Shown piece after piece: positions 8,898-24,562 of a stretch of 64,000 nucleotides of DNA. The notes beneath the pieces are model-generated. The model did no database searches. It saw only the letters and a program-made list of their open reading frames with translations, and was not told the DNA's origin. Within the stretch, counting starts at the first letter, position 1, and every line of letters starts with the position of its first letter. The DNA is taken from NCBI GenBank assembly GCA_010015655.1, contig ML976656.1, positions 1,173,385 to 1,237,384 of the forward strand, in the 5' to 3' direction. Source of the stretch: Bimuria novae-zelandiae CBS 107.79. Lineage: Eukaryota > Ascomycota > Dothideomycetes > Pleosporales > Didymosphaeriaceae. The position numbers and the translations under genes are program-made.

Positions 8898-8899
8898 TA

Positions 8900-10788
8900 C
8901 TCGCCCCACACGCCAACCGGAGGTTGGCCCTGCGCAGCCCAACGTAACTTCGCAGCCTAACGTAACTTTGTATAGAGAATCAAAATTAATCTAGTCTTTT
9001 AACAGCGTAGACTTTAATTATATAGGCTAATATACAGTAGAGTTAGTGTAGCAAGTAGGGCAGGATCTACAGTCATCTCTCTAAGAGATAGGACCTATTA
9101 GGGCTAATTTTATAGGCTCTGCAAGTAGGCGTCCTTATACGTTTTTATAGCCTTTTAAGTAACCTTTTAAGCCTTAAGCTCTATACGTTAATTAATTACT
9201 TATTACGCTACTTTAACGGTTACTACGCTACTTTTTTATACTAGCTTTTTATCTTTAATTTACCTTTTTTAGCGTTATTAAGCTGCTATAGTAATATTTA
9301 TAAGGTCGCGCTAGGCCAGCGCGAGACTATTAATTAGTAATTACAAGCTTTCTAGGAATTTTATAAGCCTCCTGCTTAATATATTGCTTCTCTCTAGGGC
9401 GCGCGACATTTTTTGATGCTGCCGCTAATATGCTGTAGGTGTATTAGCGATAGGGCTCGAATTAATAGCGGATAGAACTAATAGGGATGGCGTCTGGATA
9501 GGTGCTAGCAGCTTTATATAAACAAGCTCTAGATTAAATAGAAAGATCCTAGCTTTTTCTTAGGCGCTTAGGATTGTGCTGCGCTTAAATATATCTATCC
9601 TAATCCTATAGATCGTATGTAGAAATTTGACTTTGTTAAAGTCTGTGCAGCCAGTTCGGGTGGCTATTTCTATAGCCTTTTTATAATTCTGCTTTAATAG
9701 CTAAAAATAGACGACGTCTAGAGGCTGCAGATAATGTAATAAATATAGTAGTAGTAAGAAGGGGAGTATCTTATAATTATTATAGAACTATATAAACTCG
9801 ATAGTAAGGTAGCTACTAAATTTATTAAATATAAGTAATTACTATACGCCTTTTTAGCGCGCGCGCGTTTATATTTTAAAGAACTTTAGCTACTTTATTA
9901 AGATAGAGTTATTAGCGTATCTTAATATTAATATAGCGATTATATAGCTATTAGGCAGCGCTATATTTATATACTAATAATAAAAGTAATTAACAGCCTG
10001 TACGATAAGTATAGGTTTAAGCACCTCTTTATTACTAGAGATTAATTTAAAACTTATAATATAATCGCGCGACGTCTCTAACGCAGAGACATAAGGATAA
10101 TTAAACTCTATAGTAATAATCTATTAATTACTACTAACGCCTGTGCGGAAGCTGGTTTCGTCCATATTATAGGTGTCTAATAGGGTAACGCCGTAGGTGT
10201 ATATCACCTTTTTAAGCTTAATAAAATAATAGCTATAAGCTTTAAACGTCGCTATTACTATACGATTAATATGCTACGACTTCTGCTTTATGCGGCGATA
10301 GTCTAGATTTCTTAATAGCCATCGCGATAGCTAGTCCTTACTAAGTAAGGAAGCTCTGCTATTAGGGTGCGCGCGATTAAGGATATATTAAGTAGCACTT
10401 TTTAACTATAGTATAAGGCATAGCATGCTAATAGTGTCGTAGCGACGTATATATAACTTTAGCGCTTTATCCTAGGTCTCTGAGAGTCGTAGATTCGTGC
10501 CGCTGCGGTCATGGCGGCTGATCCGGCCTCTAGCGCGCGCTCGAAGTCGCGAAACAGGCACGCTCTATTCGCGTGCTGCAGCTGCAAAATTAGGTATTTC
10601 TAAGCTTGAAAAACTAGAGAGATAATTAGAGATACGCTACTTAATTTTATAGCTCTTACTATAATATTTAGGCATAGTTATAGGTTATTTATTAAGAAAA
10701 TAGAAAAATCCGCGACAAAAAGTTATATTAGGCTACGAAGTTACGTTGGGCTGCGCAGGGCCAACCTCCGGTTGGCGTGTGGGGCGAG
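8900..10788 (-). mobile_element. Pogo/Fot1-type element, second family (RIP-degraded)
   Basis: Inverted ends begin CTCGCCCCACACGCC (8900) and end with its complement at 10788; TA is at 8898-8899 and 10789-10790. Inside the end is a perfect hairpin CCAACC-GGA-GGTTGG, then a box GCAGCC(C/T)AACGTAAC repeated twice. The interior is decayed; the minus strand near 10140-10215 reads VTLLDTYNMDETSF, the first catalytic block of Fot1-type transposases. Length 1889 bp. A second copy begins at 63541. Confidence 0.8.
9000..10560 (-). pseudogene. Fot1-type transposase, broken
   Basis: The clearest remnant is NMDET (first catalytic Asp) around 10150-10190 on the minus strand. Flanking frames are filled with TAG/TAA. 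A GC-richer patch at 10495-10580 probably lies near the N-terminal region. The limits given are those of recognisable interior rather than a defined start and stop. Confidence 0.5.
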
Positions 10789-10991
10789 TAGAGAGCGCTT
10801 ACTAAAGAGCGATCTAAGGAGAGCGCTCTGCTAAAAGCGCTTACTAATAAGTAGCCTTAGGTTAGTATATAAGAACGTTAAACATAGCCTTTCTATACTC
10901 GTATTTAACCTGTTTATTAATCTACTATTTAGATTCTACTTAGGCTTTTGTTAATTTATTTATAACTTTATCTTGCTTATAATACTTATAA

Positions 10992-11246
10992 TGTCCGTAT
11001 GCAGTACGGGCAGCTACCTAATACGATGTCTTAAGACAGGTGATAATGGTTATGTAATACCGCACAGGCAAAGGCACAGACCATAGTCTCCGTGCGCGAG
11101 CATTAATCCTTATAACCCCCTTTCCTCCGTACGTAGAATAGACAGACAAGACTTGAATACCAGACCCTTTTCTCACCCGTACCATCGTACAACTATCTAG
11201 CCCTATCATATCGCGATATGCTTGGCTTAGTATAGCCTATTTAACA
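10992..11246 (+). repeat. Copia 5' LTR
   Basis: Starts TGTCCGTATGCAGTACGGGC, a short stem (CCGTAtgcagTACGG), and ends ATTTAACA. Differences from the 3' LTR are few and nearly all transitions. The primer-binding site just downstream could not be identified, probably because of mutation. Confidence 0.9.
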
Positions 11247-12379
11247 CTAATTAGTGGTTAATTGTCTCTACGCCTCACCCGCCTAGAGAGTTAATCATAG
11301 ATTAGCAAGAGTAAAGACGGAGACTACCTATACGGGAAGTGTAGGCTCTGTTTTGTTACTAAAGTATTAGAGGGATTTAAAAGCTTTAGAGATTAACTTG
11401 CGCCTTATACGATACGACACTCGCCTTACTTGCTAAGAACGTACTATACGCGACAAAAGAAGATAGTGCGCATTGCATAATAATAAAACACGTACCGCAT
11501 AATATAGACCTGGTATACTACCTTAAAAATAACTATATTGTACGATACAACGTGACGTAATAATAATGGCGCCAAGCATCCGAGCTTAAGCCTAACACAC
11601 TGACTAGCCTAATACACAAGACGGAATTTAAGAAATATATACTACTGCGTAAAACCCCGCGCAAAGCTCGCACGCTACTATAACTTAAGAGGAGGAGGAC
11701 AAGCTATACTAAGAACTAAGTAATAAGACTGGCATCCCCGTACGAACACTACGGAGAGACACAAGTTTAAGATACCTCGCACTAACGTTTACTATAAACG
11801 AAACGTCAAGTAAAAAGAAGCTTATATCGTACGCTATCCTAGCTCTTGTAGAGCTAGGTGCAACACGCTAAAGAGGAAAAGACTTCCTTACCTACTATAA
11901 AGAGGATTTTTTATATTAGTTATATAAATAATTTAGCAACCTCTCGCGCGTAGTTAAGAGGGAACTCTATATACTCCTTATAAATAAGGGAATTACTGTA
12001 ATTACGCCTAGCTTAGACCGTGATAACCAGGCATAGAAGCTCCACACTATCGCATAAGGACTCTGCACTATACAGGGACCTAAAGGTACTACTTCGTTAG
12101 GAACTCCACACGTACAAACTATTAAACGAGAACAACCTACATACGAGCCAGCGCCACAAACCACCGCGACTTCTACTCTAAGGGCACACACAACCTCTAC
12201 GCAGAGAGCCCTGTACGACCTATATACATAAGACTAGCAAAAGGGGCGTCAGAGGGAACACACTACGGAATACACCCATCCACACGGATAGGAAACACTC
12301 CATACTCCCCCGCACGAACAAGATACGTATAGAAGTCTAAGGCCTTAATCGTAACTATAGCAGTAGTTCGCACGAGCAG

Positions 12380-15300
12380 CTTTATAACTATATAAAATAC
12401 TAATATAGAAATAAATTATGCTATTTTAATAAATATATAATCTACTGTCCGCGTACGAAGTACTAAACGAAAGAATACCACTAGACAAGATCGTGCAATT
12501 CTAGAAGACCTAGAAAAAGGAGAATAACTACTCTGGCAAGCTATATAATATCTTATATAATAAAGCCTAGATCTTTATTAAGCTTTGCGTACGACTAGAC
12601 ATTTTAGAAAGCTAGTATTTAGCCCTTTTCCCAGATATACTAGAAGGCCGCGCGAGCGCCTACTATATCTATAATATTGGACCTGGACAAACCTGGAAGG
12701 CTCTGTACGACTAGATTAATAGGCACTTTAACACCTTAGTTAACTATAATTAGTATTAAATAGACTAGACAACTATAACCTTCGCACGATGTAAACACGA
12801 GAACCCTAATAAGTCCTTACATAAAGTCCTTAATATAATAATTAATAGACTAACCCTCGCACAAAGGGCTATAGGACTATTATTTAAGGGCTAAGTATAA
12901 CTATATACGGCAGTTGTACGAGCATGTAGAGGGCAACTAGAACTTAAATAGGCTATGTTCTCTATTAAACCTACGTGCGAAGTACTGTTCGGAGACCTTT
13001 AAACAGCACTATAGATTATAATAGATAGGCAAGCTAACTAGTACGTACAAGACACGCACGGAACGTACTACACCGATAAACGATACACAACTACCACCCG
13101 TATACCCTCTCGACCTACGTACGATAGCAGGCCTAGAATGCCGTACTAGAACTCAGGCCTATCGTACGCACGACCACGAAACGCATAACGCGGAAGAAGT
13201 AATAGTATAAAAGGGAAAAAGTGCTTTATGTGCAAAAAGAAAGAATATTAGTCCTTAAACTATCCTTGTACAGATAGATTAAAAGCCAAACGATAATACA
13301 TTTCCTCGTATAAAAAGAGACATGACCACACGCTAACCTATATAAAAGTCTTAGCCTATATTGTAGAATACGAAGGATATTCTAATAGCGAGGCTAATAA
13401 CCTTATAGATAGGAATAATAACTTTAATATTAACGATTATGGCGAAGAAGCTATACATTTCCTTATAATAGCTACTTACCTACACCGTACAACTAGCAAA
13501 GATATCTATAGCGAAGAGACTAACTAACGTGTAGACTAGTTTATTATTAAGAATTAATACCGTATAAAGTACTAGGGAGAACTTTAGGACACAGGCGTAG
13601 CAAAGATATCTACTATTAGCAAGTCTTAATTAGAAGTATACCTAAGGGAGAACCCTCGTACGAAGGTAGACTAGACCCTAAAGGTAATAAATATTTCCTT
13701 TAGAGGCTAGAACCTATAGAGTTTACTAGGGACCGTACAAATAAAGAACCTAGTTAGTAGAGTTACCTACTATATTCTTAATACCCTTATACTATTCTTA
13801 CTATCCCTAGCAGACGCCGACAGGCTAGGAGCCTACTATAATAACGTCCTTAACGTTATTGTATGGAAAGACGGTTTAACTGTACCTGTTGTACGGAAAT
13901 GGGGACACCTATTCTTTAATACAGGCCAAGATAAAGCAATCTCGTACTTTATAGAGACAGAACTCCGACGCCTATATCGACGCTTTGGACACCCCTGTAT
14001 AGAGAGACTCTATAAGATGCTTACTACTGCTAGACACGAAGTTAACCAATCCGTACTAGAAGAGATTAAGAAGTTCTGCTATTACTACTAATTACACGAC
14101 CCTTCTTTACAATAATTTAAGTTTTCTATTAAAGATAATACGCACTTTAACTACGAAGTGGTAATAGATATCGTATAGATTAGCGATAAGAACGTACTAT
14201 ACGTTATTAACGTAGGCTTCTAGGTAGTAATCTTTTTAAAATCCCTATTCGCACGAGACACCTAGGACGCGCTATGTAGATGCTAGATTAACGTCTATTA
14301 AGGACCTCCAGACTATATTATATATAACCTAGGAACCAACTTTGTATCTAAAGACTTTAGGAATCGTGCGAAGATAGTTGGAGCTACATATCGCCAAATA
14401 CCTGTAGAAGCACACTAGGCAATAGGCAAAGTAAAATAAGCCCATGCACCTCTACGTCGTACGTACAATATTATTTAAAGCGAAGTTTAGGATAGTACGG
14501 ACAATAAATCTATACTATAAATAGCTATTAAGGCTCTTAATAATATAGCAGATCTAAATAGCCTTATCTTAACGCTCCTAGTCTTTAAAGCGTACCTAAG
14601 GATTAATCTAGATTCCCCCTATCACCTAAGATTATTGCACGAGCCCACGCGATTTAAAAGGCTACGCGAATACTCTATGTAGAGAGGGCAAAGGTGAATA
14701 TTAACCGCGTAATAAATACTTGCAAGGGACCTACTTCGCACGAAGTTCTTAACCTGCCACTATAAAGTAAAGTAATAATCTAGAGGGAGAAGAAAGACTA
14801 GACAGGCCCGTATAGAATCTAAAGTATTACTAGTAGAGAAAGTTACAGTAGATTTAGGTAATAGACCCTTAACTATCTAATGTACGCACGTTAAGCTATA
14901 TTACCGTATAAAAGAACCTTAACCTACTAAAGATAACGACTATGTCGTGAAATAACTAGTTAAATAGCTATAGATACGCAGAAGAGGTAGACTAAGGAGA
15001 AACCCTATATAATATAATACCTCGCAAAGGGAAGCTCCGCACAAGACTATAAAAGATTATTATATTTAACACCTTACGTAGAAGGAAAGAGACGCGTATA
15101 AACTCTCCTTAAGGCTATAATAGGAAGGAGTAATTATAACCCTAAGAGCACCCTTTAAAGAATTAGACTATATAGAGATAGACGCCCTAATTATAAACGG
15201 AATATTTAAGATTTACAAGTTTAACCTAGAGATCTACATTAGCTAAATCTTTAACCTTTGTCTTGTACGAGAAATAAAAGGCAAATTAACTTAGCTATAC

Positions 15301-16660
15301 AAAAAGTTACGACTTGTCCTAGCTAGACACTCTAATAAGGAAAAGGAAGAGATCTTAACATAGTTACTAATAATCTAAAGAATAAGCTAGAGGCTTATTC
15401 TTGCGTTAGGCCTAACTTTAATTACCTCGCACGACATGTATTACGAAAGTTGCGATATTACACAAGCGTACGTATAGTCCATAGACAAGCTACTTTGTAC
15501 GATATAGGCAAAACTGCTAAAGGAGCTAGTAAACGTTTTTCTGCCTAATACTATACTACGTATTGTTAAGCCACTATACGGAGCAGCCGAATCAGGACTA
15601 TATTAGTTTAAAACCTACTACAACTACTATAGAAACGTACTTAAGATAACTTCTTCTTCGTATAACCTATGCCTACTTAGCACGAATAAAGGACTACTAA
15701 CTTTTAGCCTTACTAGAATGTAAATAGATAATACGCTTAGCATCGTTACCCCTAGTTTCTTATAAAGGGAAGAGGAGGAACTACGAAAAGCTAGTTTTCG
15801 TATAAAACTAAAAATAATCCTTTCGCACGAGTAAAGCCTTAAGTTTAATAGTAGACAAATTCTACTAGAAGGAGACACTATTATACTTACGCAGAAAGAA
15901 TAATCTAGCTAACTCTATATAATTAACTTAAAGGCTATTGACGCACCATATTAATATATTATATAGAGAGCAAGAGGAGCATATATTACCTTAGTCTACT
16001 AACTAGAGGTAGTATTTAATCTATCCGCCGCCGCACAAGTTACTAAACTAAAGGATATAGATATCTCCTACCTTAACGCATGACTTAAATGGCAAATCTA
16101 AAACTTTGCACAAGGACTTACGTTTATCCTATTAAATCTTGCTTGTGCGAAACTATTTATCTTCACGGATAGTTTATTCGCGAATAATAAAGACCTAAGC
16201 TTATAGCTTAGATTTATAATTATGTTAGCAAATGAACACCGTACGGAATAGGGGAATAGTTTTAGAATTAAAGGCAACATTATACATTAGAACTTAGTTA
16301 AATATAAGCAAGTTACACGAAGTGTACTTGCTAGCAAGCTATATAGAATAGTTAGTAGCTTTAATAGCGTAATAGCGTTAAGTACAACGCTAAGACAGGT
16401 CGTACGAAACCTAGACCTGCCACCTATTCCTATAGTTATCTGCACTGACTCGAAGTCGCTATATAATTACCTTATTAAACTAGGTATAACGAATAAGAAG
16501 AGACTTATAATTAATATTATGTCGCTTCGTGAATCGTACGAAAAGAGGGAGATTAATAAAGTTTACTAGATTAATAGAAAAGACAACCTAGTAGATGCGT
16601 ATACAAAGAAGACTCTAAATACTGCCTTAGAGAAGCTTATCTCTATAAACTAGCTCTAGA
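12380..16660 (+). pseudogene. Copia gag-pol, broken by RIP-type stops
   Basis: Domains appear in order on the plus strand. A gag core reads …FPDILEGRASAYY… (about 12625-12670), with LYD followed by TAG where Trp is usual. A zinc knuckle KKCFMC… lies at 13216-13265, its later His/Cys positions lost. An integrase segment runs about 13950-14480 with …YRRFGHPCIERL… and …DYIIYNLGTNF… . The reverse transcriptase has PLYGAAESG near 15570-15600. A terminal RNase H-like block has …ICTDSKSLYNYL… near 16440-16480 and …NLVDAYTKKTL near 16590-16620. Stops are chiefly TAG at Trp/Gln positions, as RIP produces. No product is expected. Confidence 0.85.
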
Positions 16661-16948
16661 TCCAGGTTAAAGCATTCGTGGACAGAATTAACCCCGTATA
16701 GAATAGAATAGACACCGTCTAAGACACATCGGACCCCGTACGATACAGGGAAGCTACTTCCGTATAATAATACATGATTAATATTATCTTCCTTCTTCTA
16801 TCTTCTTCTCCATTCATTCGCACGTATGTATTATTATAGTTTCTTTTATTACTCTCCTTATCGCACGAGCATTTCTGAAAAAAAAGGGTAATTAGAAAGA
16901 AGATAATTTCTTAATTATAACAAAAAAAAAAAAAAAAAAACCCAGCAC

Positions 16949-17470
16949 CTAGTCATGGTGCCCGCACCGAGCACCACGGCTCTGCCAGACGCAGGAGCCA
17001 CACGCCCCCCCCTGGAAGTCCGCCACCGTGCGGCACTCCACGAAGGGCAGCGCCCCAGGACCGCCGCCGCACCGCTGCGGGCATCCCGCACGCAGAACCC
17101 CCCGGCTCTGCACCAGCACCGCACGGAAGTATCCCTCCCGACGGATGATCTTGGCGACAAAGAGCGCCAGATTAGTGCCCGCAGGCACAAGGACGACGAT
17201 GTCTTGCGAGGGCGCCAGCGCCAGCGCCATCTCATCATCCTAAGAAAGAGTTAGTATTCCGTACGGAGAAGAGAGGACAATACTCAGGATGCGTACGTTG
17301 ACACAGAGGCCCTGCATCAAACGCCGGTTTCCCGGCTGCCCAGTGGGCAAGACGATGCGCAGGCGTCCGCCCGCAGGCGCGGCAACAACGTTGCCAAAGA
17401 GGCCGGCACTGCTAGGAGGAACTGCGCACATGGCCACCGGACGGGGAAGGGACCCCCTACCAAGGGCTGC
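16949..17470 (-). CDS. Captured host-gene fragment (Cys-rich, DUF3716-like) inside the copia element
   Basis: A GC-rich block bounded by an A18 run at 16921-16938. On the minus strand an open frame from about 17470 to 17297 can be joined, in phase, across a 57-bp intron (17296-17240). The intron has GTACGC at its 5' end, branch-like TACTAAC (17256-17250) and TTCTTAG at its 3' end. Exon 2 continues to a TAG at 16949-16951 and encodes MALALAPSQDIVVLVPAG…, then a Cys cluster: C50-x3-C54, FVEC66, GGAC77-x2-C80, ARC89. That pattern resembles the small fungal domain called DUF3716, of unknown function; I am fairly but not fully sure. No RIP-type stops occur. The fragment is antisense to the copia genes and lacks a clear start codon, so it is probably a passenger piece, not a complete gene. 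Confidence 0.55.
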
Positions 17471-17529
17471 CTACATGCATGCTTAGGAAAGGTACCGTAC
17501 GAGCCAAGGAGAAGATCTAAGTAACACCA

Positions 17530-17542
17530 CAAAAAGAAAAAG
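17530..17542 (+). other. Candidate polypurine tract of the copia element
   Basis: AAAAAGAAAAAG lies eight bases upstream of the 3' LTR start at 17550, in the place and orientation expected for the plus-strand primer. Confidence 0.5.
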
Positions 17543-17549
17543 TTGCCAG

Positions 17550-17804
17550 TGTCCGTACGCAGTACGGGCAGCTACCTAATACAATGTCTTAAGACAGGTG
17601 ACAATAGTTATGTAATACCGCACAGGCAAAGGTATAGACCATAGTTACCGTGCGCGAGCATTAATCCTTATAACCCCCTTTCCTCCGTACGTAGAATAGA
17701 CAGACAAGACTTGAATACCAGACCCTTTTCTCACCCGTACCATCGTACAACTATCTAGCCCTATCATATCGCGATATGCTTGGCTTAGTATAGCCCATTC
17801 AACA
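17550..17804 (+). repeat. Copia 3' LTR
   Basis: 255 bp, starts TGTCCGTACGCAGTACGGGC and ends CATTCAACA, followed by the TATAA duplication. It preserves the CCGTACgcaGTACGG stem better than the 5' copy. Confidence 0.92.
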
Positions 17805-17917
17805 TATAACTTATTAATACGCGTGAGCTATTAAAACCCCTTTCTTATCTTATAGTACTCTTACCTAAGAACTAACCTTAGCTCCTTTAGGACCAGCTAC
17901 CCCTTCGAGACTTAACA

Positions 17918-18519
17918 CTAGCTTTCTTAAAAAGAAGTTAATAGGACACTAGTCTGACGTACTATCCTTATTAGGAACTAAATAGCTTAAAATAGCGCTA
18001 ATAGCCTTATCTAAGGCGTCTATTTTAACATGTATCTATCACTTATATTTAAAGTACGCTAAAATTAGCATTTTAAAAAAGGTGTTATAAAACTTTGTAA
18101 ACGCTTTTTTACATATAGGGCTAATATTAATTTTAGCGCTTTTATTCCGCCTTATAGCTAGCCTACCCTTGGCGCTATGAGGCGCCTTTTAGGTTAATAT
18201 AGTTAAAGGCAATGCTAATTAGGAGAAATACTTAATAAACTACTTATAGTAATTTGTAAAATTAAAAAAGACCCTAATATTACGTATATATTACAGTATA
18301 GGCTAGTTCTAGATAGCTTTAACCTAAAACTTATTAATTTAAAGGCCTTTGAAGAAAATAATAAAGCTAAAGTACTGTATAAATTTTATGTGCTAATCGC
18401 ACTTCTTTAGGTTAATAAAGAAGTTTACTTTATGTAAACGTCCTAGGACCTTATAAATATAACCCTTATATTTCTTTTTAGTATTAAAGATAATTAATAT
18501 ATTATTAAAGTATATTATA
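17918..18519 (-). pseudogene. Gypsy-1 reverse transcriptase end and connection region
   Basis: The minus strand matches the plus-strand Gypsy-2 sequence at 33680-34260 nearly base for base apart from transitions (for example the …TCAAAGGCCTTTAAATTAATAAG-like and AAGTATTTCTCCTAATTAGC blocks). From 18519 leftward it reads the end of the YxDD box region and …KVLGRLHKVNFF… . It joins 20266 once the insertion 18520-20265 is removed, and stops against the family X LTR at 17918. Confidence 0.7.
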
Positions 18520-20265: not shown

Positions 20266-21187
20266 TATAAGTTATAGTAATTAGTCCTGCTAGCACTTAT
20301 AAAATAAGCTACTAAAACTAAACAAGAGCGTTAGTTCAGCTAAAAGGTATAACTATATACTTAAAATAGCTATAACGTATATAGAAGGCAGTCTTTTATT
20401 GTCCTCTTTAATAATATAGACACGATAATAAACCGTTTATAAATTAAGTTTAGTATAGATTATTGCTTTTACAAGGCGATCTAGTAACTCTATAATAAAT
20501 AAAAGAGTACTATAATTTCTAATCGCAATTTTAATTAGACCTTTATAATCTATATAAAGCCTAAGTAAGCTATCTTTTTTTTTACAATGAGTATTAGCGC
20601 ACCTACCGGGGATTTAGACTATTTTATCTGTTTGTAACTAAAATACTCCTTAATATACTTCCTTAAGACCTTAAGTTTAGTTACTAAAAAGAGATATATA
20701 AGGTAATGTAAATCAGAAGTTCCCGTTTCTAAATTAATTTATAGATTAGTTACTTTATAGGTAGCTAGCTAGTACTTTAAGATATTTATATAGGGTAAAA
20801 TTTATAAAGTTAGCGTACCTTTTTAATAATAGCAAATCATTACGCTTAATTAGGCCGTTTATATCTACTTTATTAATAACACTAACCGAGAAAATATAAA
20901 CTATAATATAGGGGTCGTGCGTAGTGCGCTTAAACTTATTAGTATTCTTTATCACTATCTATTTAAAAGAAGCATTTACTTTTTAGAATACTTTTTTTAA
21001 AAAGACACGCCTAATTATAATATTAGCTTTTAAAACTTTTTTTATCAAACTAAGATAAGTTTAAAAAACCTTAAATTAAGGGAAATCTATTATTATAAAT
21101 CAGATACTTTAAGTATATTTATGGTCCTAAGAGTTAGTCAACATTATGTTAGTAACTACTATACTATATATAATTATATTAAACCTA
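20266..21187 (-). pseudogene. Gypsy-1 reverse transcriptase, N-terminal part
   Basis: The minus strand carries the RT entry block …KKK…LRLYIDYKGL (about 20600-20540), then …IYTKLNL… and …YRVYI…KED… toward 20400. Upstream, 20955-20755 encodes …INGLIKRNDLLLLKRYANFINFTLY, collinear with 33040-33165 of Gypsy-2. Stops are TAG/TAA throughout. The TA-flanked element at 21188 interrupts it. Confidence 0.75.
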
Positions 21188-23034
21188 ACGTGATTCACCA
21201 CCGAGCGGGCCAACCCCACCGAGCGGGCCAACTTTGCTAAATGCAGCCCACCTCCAGCTTATACCACAATGCCATCACAACATAACGCGCAATAACCTTA
21301 TACTAAAAGCGCACTATAGCTTACTATCTAAGCTATAATTAAAAATCGCGATAAGAGTAAAAGACGCGTTATTATAGCCTTTAGCGTGCCTCGAATAATA
21401 GTATAATAATAACGTTAAGGAGCCCTCTCTTAACGCGATTACAAGCCTAACTTAAAGAAGCTAACTAAGCTAGAGGAGGAGGCTCTAGTCTAACGTATAC
21501 TTAAGCTTAACTAGCGAGGAATAGGTGTAATAAGGGATATAGTCTAAGATATAGCTAATAATCTACTTACTAAGCGCGGTAAATAGCCTATTAGTAAGCA
21601 CTAGATAGACAGGCTTAAAACGCGTACGCTAGAAATTAAGCTTTAAAGAAGCTATCTATATAATTATTAGCAAGCCCTAAACGAAGATCTACGTATTATA
21701 ACGCCCTAGTTCGAGCTAGTTACTAATACTAAGGCTAAGTATGGTATCGCTAATAACGACACGTACAACTTTAATAAGACAGGCTTTATAATAGGGGTAA
21801 TATAGGGTTAGATAGTCTTTACAGGCTCTAAGAAGCGAAGCAACCTAAAAAAGATTTAACCTAGTAACTATAAGTAAGTTACTAATATCTAAAGTGTTAG
21901 CGCTAAAGGCTAGGCTTTACTACCCTTTCTTATTTTCCTTAGTAAGGTTCTAATTACGTCCTGGTTCTATAATCTACCCTAAGACTAAGTTATTAAAGTT
22001 AGTCTTAATAGCTAGACGTTAAATAAGCTTAGCCTTGCCTAGCTAAGGCACTTTAATGCCTATACTAAGGCGCGTAGTTTAGGTACACACTAGCTACTAA
22101 TTATAGATAGTTACAAGAGCCACTGCTCACACAAATTCCACAAATACTATAAGGAATAAAAGATTATTATTCTTTATATGCCTCTACACTCATCACACCT
22201 TTTATAGCTACTTAATGTAGGTTATTTTTCGCCTTTAAAGCGGGCGTATAGTAATAAAATTAGTAGCTTAGCATAGTACAGCACTAAGTAGATTAAAAAG
22301 GAGACCTTTCTACTAGCCTTTAAAGTAGCTTTTAAAAAGGTAATAATAAAGGCGAACATCTACGCAGGCTTTAAAAGCGCTAGATTAGTCCTATATAACC
22401 TAAAGGCGGTATTATTAAGACTTAATATAGTTCTTTGTACGCTAACTCCACCTAACGTAAAGGATACCTTATAGAAATTAAAAATACTAAGTAACCTCCG
22501 CGAGATAAAGGCTTAGTTAACGCTAGTTCGTAAGCGTGTATAGAAGTATAGAGATTTACTAGTTTCTCCGCTTCTTAGAGCTATTAAGCAGCTTAATAAA
22601 GGTGTTATATTAATAGGGCACGAAATAGTATTAATATAATAAAAAATAGTAAGGCTTTATAAGGTAGTAAAGATAGTAATAAAGGTAAAAAGTTAAAAGA
22701 GGAAGTATATTCAGGCAGCTAAGACACTTACAGTAGGAGAGGTAGTCGATTTAATAGCTAAAAAGAATAGTAGTAGGCAAAAGGAGGGTGAAGAGTCTGC
22801 AAAGAGGGTGCGTGGGCAGAGGCGCTGCGGACGTTGCGGCGAAGCTGGCCACAACGCTCGCACCTACGCAGTAGAAATTATAGATGCATCTAATAGCGAT
22901 AAGTCTAAATAGTATTTCTATGTTCTGCGAATTATAGTAAATTATAGTAGTGTTGTAGGAGGCGCTTCGCAATAGACTGACTTTTAAAAAGTGGCCCGCT
23001 CGGTGGGGTTGGCCCGCTCGGTGGTGAACCACGT
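21188..23034 (+). mobile_element. Pogo/Fot1-type element, family B copy 1
   Basis: Ends begin ACGTG(A/G)TTCACCACC; TA is at 21186-21187 and 23035-23036. The box CCACCGAGCGGGCCAA occurs twice in each end. Length 1847 bp, identical to copy 2 at 47892-49738. The plus strand shows …DTYNFNKTGF near 21755-21790 (first catalytic Asp of YNFDETG mutated). Confidence 0.9.
21330..22910 (+). pseudogene. Pogo transposase with C-terminal zinc knuckle, broken
   Basis: YNFNKTGFIIG (about 21765-21800) is the first DDE block. The second is recognisable near 22100 (…IDSYKSHCSHKFH…), with the expected LPLHSSHLL-like block near 22180-22205. The tail 22780-22870 is unmutated and reads RVRGQRRCGRCGEAGHNART then Y, i.e. 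C-x2-C-x4-H-x4-Y, where the last Cys appears lost through one G-to-A change. The architecture matches the intact transposase at 7151-8806. Confidence 0.75.
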
Positions 23035-24562
23035 TATTTATAGATTACTCTAATAAATAGTCTAGTAAAATTACCTTTAGCTTTATCCTGTTTATTAGCT
23101 TAGTAGAGAAGAGGTTTAAGGCTAACTCTAGGTCTATAAGTATATTAACTTTACCCTTATTTTTAATTTTAGCTTTAAAAGTAAGTATACCTTTAGGCTA
23201 ACTAAAAACCTAATTAAATAATTAGCTATTATTCTTTGCCTTCGGGACCCTAATAATATAGCTAACTAGAATATTAGTACAAGTAATAAGTATAATTATT
23301 ATATTTTACGCTTTTTACCTTTTCCTAATAAGCCGCGTTTTACTTTAATAAAATTAGCTGAGACTAGCTTATCCTTCTTTAAATAGTCGAGACTTATATA
23401 ACTAAGCTAGTTATAATAATAGAAAAATAGCAGGGTAGATATACCTTTAGTGCTAAAAGTTACTATACTACGCCCTTTAGCGCCTTTTCGCGACTTAGTA
23501 AGACCCTTAGTATATTTTAAAAGTCTTAAAAACTTTTTTACTTTTTGTAAGTAATTGTTAGAGTCTTTTAACTATGTTAATGGTCCTTGATTTGCTTTTA
23601 GAGTAAATAAATATTGCTAGAACATAATAGCTTTTTTTTAGCGACTATATCTTACGAAGAGTTTTTTAAAATTACTAATTAACCTTTAATATAATAGCGT
23701 AAATAGCTAATATAGTGAAGTACACACGTTAGCTTATCCTTTTTTATAGTTTAGTCTAACTTTCTCTATAATACTTAGATATATTTTAATAGTTTAGATA
23801 ATAACTAGCCTAGCTTTTATAAATACTCCTTAAGGGTATTATAGACTTATAGTTAACGCTAAAAAGAAGTTCTTAACGTATTAAGTATTTTCTCCTTTAA
23901 TACGTCTTAATTCTTTTGCGAATTATAATTCTAGCTACGTTAAAATGCCGCTTTAGAATTCTAACTAATATAAAAAGTCTTTATTATATAAGTAATAGTA
24001 AACTTTACCTTTCTCTTCTCAGTAGGAAATGGATTAATAATTAATGAATTTAACGTTTAGAATTATCTTTTTAAAGGTTAAAGTCACGTAATTTTTTTTT
24101 CTAATATATATATATATAGTGCTTTAAGAGGAGGAGATCGCATGGCAGATGCTAAACTCGCCACTATAGGCTAAATAGCTACTGTAAAGGTCTCTAAAAA
24201 TAGCATTTTAGTTACCTTGTTTATATTAATAATATATACCCGATTTTTTATAGTTATATATTTTTAAGCTAAACGTAAGTTTTCTTAATAGTTTACTATA
24301 TTATAAAACTAATTAATATTAGTAAGGTAAGCGTCGCGCCTAAAGTAACTATTAGGGTTAAAATAATACTAAAAGGGCCTATCTACACCCTAACAGGGCT
24401 AGCAAATACGTAAGAGTTCCTTTAAATAAAAGGTTTTGAAACTAGATAGTTTTAGGCATTCTATAGTTTATTAACTTTATTTTTTATTAAAGTTAACTTT
24501 AATAGGTACATCTTGCTTAGAATAGTCTTAGATAGTAAAAGCATAATAAGTCTTTAGACATA
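23035..24562 (-). pseudogene. Gypsy-1 gag and protease region, broken
   Basis: The minus strand near 23200-23040 reads …KIKNKGKVNILIDLELALNLFS…, the protease block in which 'DTGA' would be expected (here mutated). Upstream sequence to 24562 is compatible with gag but too decayed to read domain by domain. A short unmutated stretch lies at 24125-24165. Confidence 0.55.

Follow-up and report, generated by a model that had tools for sequence, protein, structure and literature searches.

An antisense, intron-bearing DUF3716 gene carried by a mobile, probably Ty1/copia-type LTR retrotransposon of Bimuria novae-zelandiae

LTR retrotransposons, including maize Bs1, have transduced cellular sequences (as cited in PMC11963269), and the genes transduced by retroviruses usually lie in the same sense as gag-pol (PMC11963269). 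An exception in orientation is found in the Retand Ty3/gypsy elements of plants, which carry an antisense ORF, TRP28, for which the excerpted text of PMC11963269 reports no similarity outside transposable elements. Multiplication of gene pieces within mobile elements has also been described in the Pleosporales, where transduplication in Pyrenophora tritici-repentis involves DNA transposons with histone H3-like pieces (PMC3538342). Among 317 Pezizomycotina genomes, GalEa elements, which are 5.4–7.0 kb long, occur in a third and FunCo1 in ~40%; a word search of the excerpted text of that survey gave no mention of antisense, captured, transduced or host genes (PMC5445492).

Here we describe an LTR element in a 64,000-nucleotide stretch of DNA (the window) from Bimuria novae-zelandiae CBS 107.79, a Pleosporales ascomycete whose 77.4-Mb genome, in 191 contigs, is the genome searched throughout. 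The element falls within the GalEa size range (PMC5445492) and carries a DUF3716 gene as an antisense, intron-keeping passenger that is mobile. As in Retand, the extra gene is antisense to gag-pol, lies between pol and the 3' LTR, encodes a domain of unknown function and is found in recently moved non-autonomous members (PMC11963269). The two systems differ in that Retand is a plant gypsy element with TRP28, whereas the Bimuria element is fungal with DUF3716, and in that the excerpted text on Retand mentions no intron whereas the Bimuria passenger has one of 57 nt (PMC11963269). Like Bs1 and others, the Bimuria element holds a foreign gene within an LTR element, but in contrast to retrovirus-transduced genes this gene is antisense and comes with an intron and upstream sequence (PMC11963269). 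It shares with the P. tritici-repentis case the multiplication of gene pieces in a mobile element of the Pleosporales, although that case does not involve a retroelement (PMC3538342). On these comparisons, we would class it as a gene-carrying LTR element whose layout appears closest to plant Retand, insofar as that system is described in the excerpted text (PMC11963269). Literature searches found, among the matches listed, no description of an antisense DUF3716 passenger element, and no paper naming DUF3716. Our observations on the Bimuria gene concern one subfamily in one genome.

The element is bounded by two 255-bp LTRs in direct orientation on the plus strand (TGTCCG...TTAACA, positions 10992–11246; TGTCCG...TCAACA, positions 17550–17804) and by identical copies of a 5-bp target site duplication, TATAA (10987–10991 and 17805–17809); direct LTRs, TG...CA ends and a short target duplication are the hallmarks of an LTR retrotransposon. 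The LTRs differ at 10 of 255 positions, nine of the differences being transitions. The plus-strand region that follows the 5' LTR (11247–16735) is a decayed gag-pol, probably of Ty1/copia type, with no long frame; its longest plus-strand stop-to-stop frame is 123 aa, and its pieces match nothing in Pfam over any cut-off. In a direct tblastn comparison with two RVT_2 elements no match fell below E 0.3, and an RVT_2 search of the genome gave none at this element (150 of 1053 candidates scored). A 92-aa RNase H-like piece of pol (16291–16566, plus strand) has 32 homologous proteins. Two of the 22 tested match, weakly, the stretch that follows RVT_2 in locus L059 of the same genome (best E 4e-4, computed on this one 4.6-kb subject), none of the 22 matches locus L058, and none of five RNase H-like fragments exceeds a Pfam cut-off. 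Through these fragments, the element is probably, if with weak support, of Ty1/copia type.

The first-pass annotation had singled out a GC-rich block between the decayed pol and the 3' LTR, and the GC content bears this out (64% at 17000–17499, compared with 34% at 16000–16499 and 27–41% at 17500–18499). We find that the block belongs to an insert (16744–17494) flanked by two exact copies of an 8-bp direct repeat, CCGTACGA (16736–16743 and 17495–17502). Related elements at nine of nine loci read (L031–L038 and L041) are empty, passing from pol to the LTR side through one copy of CCGTACGA, intact or altered by transitions; this count omits L039, L040, L042 and L043, where the matches stop short. 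The block is thus not the ordinary 3' sequence of all related elements. An 18-A run had been taken as one border of the block; it is a run of 19 A on the plus strand (16922–16940) that lies inside the insert, ~180 bp to the right of the actual left border at 16743/16744, and it is this long in the window only, the sister copies C42, C106 and C23 having 8–9 A. The exact 8-bp repeat is compatible with either a target duplication or microhomology. A separate motif, CCGTACGG, was considered as over-used and set aside as weak, with 2 occurrences in the window compared with 0.2 expected, a number reached by 3 of 100 shuffles.

On the minus strand, the insert has two exons, annotated at 17297–17431 and 16949–17239 (the latter including the stop codon), separated by a 57-nt intron (17240–17296) with GTACGC, TACTAAC and TTCTTAG signals. 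These splice in phase to give 141 aa, as had been proposed, whereas the unspliced frame runs into a TAG at the acceptor; the pattern GTANG-(25-60)-TACTAAC-(3-14)-YAG fits only two places on both strands of the 64 kb, one of which is this intron. The product is identical to the public gene model BU23DRAFT_625445 of the same strain (P0001). A cysteine pattern like that of DUF3716 had been noted by eye, and the profile search agrees: residues 85–139 (16958–17122, minus strand) match DUF3716 (PF12511) over profile positions 1–58 of 59 with E 1.8e-7 and 31.4 bits, above the curated cut-off of 22 bits.

The window gene is nevertheless incomplete relative to its sisters. An internal deletion at 17411/17412, of 481–538 bp depending on the sister copy compared and lying between imperfect repeats, has removed the original start codon, a GT-repeat and the near upstream region. 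Because ~0.5 kb has been lost, the annotated start is a chimaera, with ~17412–17431 of exon 1 derived from upstream of the gene and not from the original coding sequence. The gene is whole in C42, where it encodes 149 aa from an ATG adjoining the GT-repeat and is preceded within the insert by ~0.5 kb of upstream sequence. C106 likewise keeps the start and the upstream region, and its frame is as in C42 until the assembled sequence turns, within passenger exon 2 (L016 7087–7150), into 47 consecutive C followed by 16 N, likely an assembly gap. The earlier view of a gene piece holds for the window copy; the gene is whole in C42 and, up to the gap, in C106. The intron is kept in all six copies that reach it, with alterations to the splice signals in two: the acceptor is mutated in C182 and the branch site reads TACCAAC in C106.

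Searches for related proteins reveal a real family. Homologues of the product are found in other genera from E 4e-42, and a profile search (best 7994 candidates by shared words scored) gives at least 37 relatives at E ≤ 0.01, for 29 of which PF12511 is precomputed; the named genera are Colletotrichum, Xylaria, Nemania, Pyricularia, Lasiosphaeria, Polyplosphaeria and Bimuria. An alignment of 30 relatives reveals an invariant QSRG and five nearly invariant cysteines. Like other DUF3716 proteins, the passenger has a C-terminal Cys-rich domain over the curated cut-off, whereas its subfamily differs from the domain alone in an added N-terminal part and an IRREGYFRAxLVQSRG-like motif, which contains the invariant QSRG, ahead of DUF3716. 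The putative product would be a small Cys-rich protein, perhaps zinc-binding. The AlphaFold model (mean pLDDT 80, pTM 0.77) has no match at E ≤ 0.001 among 64 Foldseek matches in the PDB (best 1.1), and the profile matches PDB chains at best with E 0.57, so that the fold gives no function. Three metagenome homologues (P0003, P0006 and P0022) have extra residues, the first a V, exactly at the position of the Bimuria intron; given their resemblance to a read-through intron, the intron is probably old. In several relatives (P0008, P0011, P0016, P0026 and P0028) the protein has a tail rich in acidic residues or Gly and finishes in a few hydrophobic and acidic residues (for example PMVIE or IIVLD), features absent in Bimuria; these short ends resemble a SUMO-interaction motif.

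The gene sequence occurs at seven places in the genome (the window, C42, C106, C23, C148, C12 and C182), and a protein search of the genome recovers all seven and one further place, C123. The passenger sits at the same element position in other copies, as anticipated if it moves with the element. Two LTRs could be read, in the stretches examined, at four of the seven places, each of which has its own 5-bp duplication (TATAA in the window, TACAC in C106, TTTAG in C12 and GATGT in C182), from which we conclude that the gene moved with the element. C148, C12 and C182 (loci L017, L018 and L019) have one internal deletion in common, from ~13334 to ~16992, which places them in a non-autonomous derivative; this too has moved, and it retains a truncated passenger. 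Two other places, C19 and C108, have right-hand parts of the insert alone. A genome search with the LTR (17550–17804) found matches to the LTR alone, with 96–98% identity, at 32 of the 40 scored places (149 candidates), and five of the gene-bearing places besides the window match at 89–94%; the 32 are candidate solo LTRs, which may be too short to attract RIP.

The block had also been described as RIP-free, which is true of the exons and less so of the non-coding parts of the insert. Most of the changes that separate the copies are transitions, although transversions are more frequent in the left part of the insert (2–6 of 11–15 differences), and backbone differences are commonest at CpA and CpG. 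In these copy comparisons, the rows for the segment after the insert plus the LTR take in some sequence past the LTR, and the C23 comparison at 15815–16190 (~60% apparent difference) was left out as a misalignment over an insertion. When C42 is compared with C106, 3 of 165 CpR sites differ in the exons and 33 of 158 in the non-coding insert (p 1.5e-8), with 35 of 78 in the pol end and LTR. Two simple sources of the contrast were considered and rejected. Sequence context does not account for it, since stratification by trinucleotide gives 27.6 exon changes expected from the non-coding rate compared with 3 seen; nor does copy number, in which the non-coding parts do not exceed the exons, the upstream part of the insert being found at 6 places and the left part at 4, all in these elements or the remnant C19.

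Scoring RIP-type changes in each copy against the majority of the other copies resolves the long copies from the short ones. Exon and non-coding counts are, respectively, 1/142 and 4/52 in the window copy, 1/157 and 20/145 in C42, 1/156 and 3/134 in C106, and 1/70 and 1/23 in C23, so that in the four long copies pooled such changes are ~10 times rarer in exons (4/525) than in non-coding sequence (28/354). The three short copies with broken genes have 11/148 and 8/115 (C148), 18/152 and 7/115 (C12), and 65/153 and 22/121 (C182), for a pooled 94/453 and 37/351. C42 supplies most of the contrast: without it, the long copies have 3/368 in exons and 8/209 in non-coding sequence (p 0.02), and neither C106 nor C23 is significant alone. 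All of these p-values are too small because the copies share ancestry. The long copies differ in their exons by 6 nonsynonymous and 5 synonymous changes, or 4 and 5 once two that lie at the edge of a break or gap are set aside, where the possible CpR changes number 99 nonsynonymous, 8 stop and 60 synonymous; these counts provide no firm test of selection. Within a single insert, exons can be set against intron and upstream sequence for RIP damage, both where the gene is whole and where it is broken, which offers a natural test of selection on a passenger gene in an element that the host is mutating; the pattern suggests, without proving, that the exons of the long copies have been spared as under coding constraint. 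Selection on the present copies is counted against by the window copy, which has lost its start and yet has exons as clean as those of C42.

Based on these observations, we hypothesize a single insertion event, in which an entire DUF3716 gene entered a probably Ty1/copia-type element backwards, between pol and the 3' LTR, and brought along its intron and ~0.5 kb of upstream sequence. The intron, the upstream sequence and the flanking 8-bp repeat together suggest capture as DNA and not from mRNA. The element would then have copied the gene through its own sense RNA, in which the intron reads as antisense sequence lacking its splice sites and so would be kept through every round. In the working picture that we propose, the gene would be transcribed from the minus strand by its own upstream region and then spliced, and the low RIP damage of the exons suggests a product useful, now or recently, to the element or the host. 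We assign this explanation as a whole a probability of about 0.58, with the splice-site changes in C182 and C106 counting against it. Retrocopied genes as a rule lose their introns. The Bimuria element is a clear instance of a retrotransposon that has moved a gene together with its intron, in reverse orientation, and so sidesteps that rule.

The passenger may instead have been captured and spread while doing nothing, uneven RIP having damaged the backbone, present in many copies, more than the insert, present in few. C106 is as this predicts: 31 of its 255 LTR sites differ, every one by a transition, yet hardly any damage is seen in its insert, in coding and non-coding parts alike, so uneven RIP accounts for part of the pattern. 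The genes that are truncated or broken in the window, C148, C12, C182 and C23 also speak for passive carriage. Such carriage does not, however, fit the contrast within the C42 insert, where exons and non-coding parts have a similar copy number, or the deficit of exon changes between C42 and C106 after stratification, and the exons of C182 demonstrate that this sequence can take heavy damage. We therefore treat a passive hitchhiker as possible, if on balance unlikely.

Independent insertions in the genome share one gene at one position, and gene-free relatives exist, both as expected of a transducing retrotransposon, for which a cellular parent gene would also be expected. A search for a host paralogue with the same intron had been proposed; the protein search of this genome found neither this nor a close cellular parent, the nearest DUF3716 gene being that at C123 (35% identity over 55 aa, E 0.02). 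A DUF3716 family search of the genome gave four places, three of these elements and the too distant C123; it overlooked four of the seven places that carry the gene, and so is not exhaustive and is weak evidence. The C123 locus (L023, C123:155131-155298, minus strand) looks like an ordinary DUF3716 gene, has an open frame of 246 aa and is the sole other DUF3716 place found. A search of viral contigs for the source gene gave no match. Of the proposal that a cellular gene was captured in reverse, the antisense gene and its absence from the empty relatives stand, whereas the cellular source, a host gene, is unproven; the passenger may be of cellular or foreign origin, or it may have belonged to mobile elements for a long time as an accessory gene.

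The last of these origins implies a different history, in which the gene is an old possession of the copia lineage, comparable to TRP28 in plant Retand elements, and recombination between the two 8-bp repeats removed it from the apparently empty elements. The absence of a close parent in Bimuria and the spread of relatives over seven named ascomycete genera agree with this, as do proteins identical in part on contigs of different length, which hint that DUF3716 relatives are mobile in other fungi: P0023 and P0024 of Lasiosphaeria are 100% identical over 141 aa and P0019 and P0027 of C. spaethianum over 93 aa, each pair on different contigs, and 20 contigs are given for P0008 of C. tabaci. Against it, all nine empties read have one clean join in common, and the family search, with the weakness noted above, found C123 alone beyond the three elements. 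A tree of the element backbone is poorly supported and does not settle whether the insert was gained rather than lost, and transversion and indel markers are uninformative, the long indel among them reflecting the point where two short loci stop aligning. Loss from an ancestral gene-bearing lineage seems to us rather unlikely. We are more doubtful still of the broader notion that DUF3716 is a working antisense accessory gene of fungal retroelements, a counterpart of the Retand ORF that would be kept by selection against RIP, transcribed from its own promoter, spliced and recurrent in elements of Colletotrichum, Pyricularia, Xylaria, Lasiosphaeria and the Pleosporales. Were it true, the product may aid the element or dampen host defence, and if the relatives are element-borne too, a family without a function would become an accessory gene of mobile elements.

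A further alternative is that the insert is itself a small hAT-like DNA transposon that brought the gene into a copia copy. The exact 8-bp CCGTACGA, single in the empties, is the length of a hAT duplication, but the insert ends, read by eye, have no terminal inverted repeat beyond TAC/GTA and so lack what defines a hAT element, no free copy of the left or upstream part was seen among its 4 and 6 places, and the recurrence of CGTACG-like words within the element makes microhomology possible; we consider such a vehicle improbable. A chance GC-rich stretch without a gene is refuted by the Pfam match and by the homologues in other genera.

Two other repeats lie in the window. At 21186–23036, 50-bp inverted repeats that are 94% complementary, 1.75 kb apart and with ends near TA give what looks like a small DNA transposon, and at 8898–10790, 83-bp inverted repeats that are 90% complementary and 1.7 kb apart mark a possible second DNA transposon.
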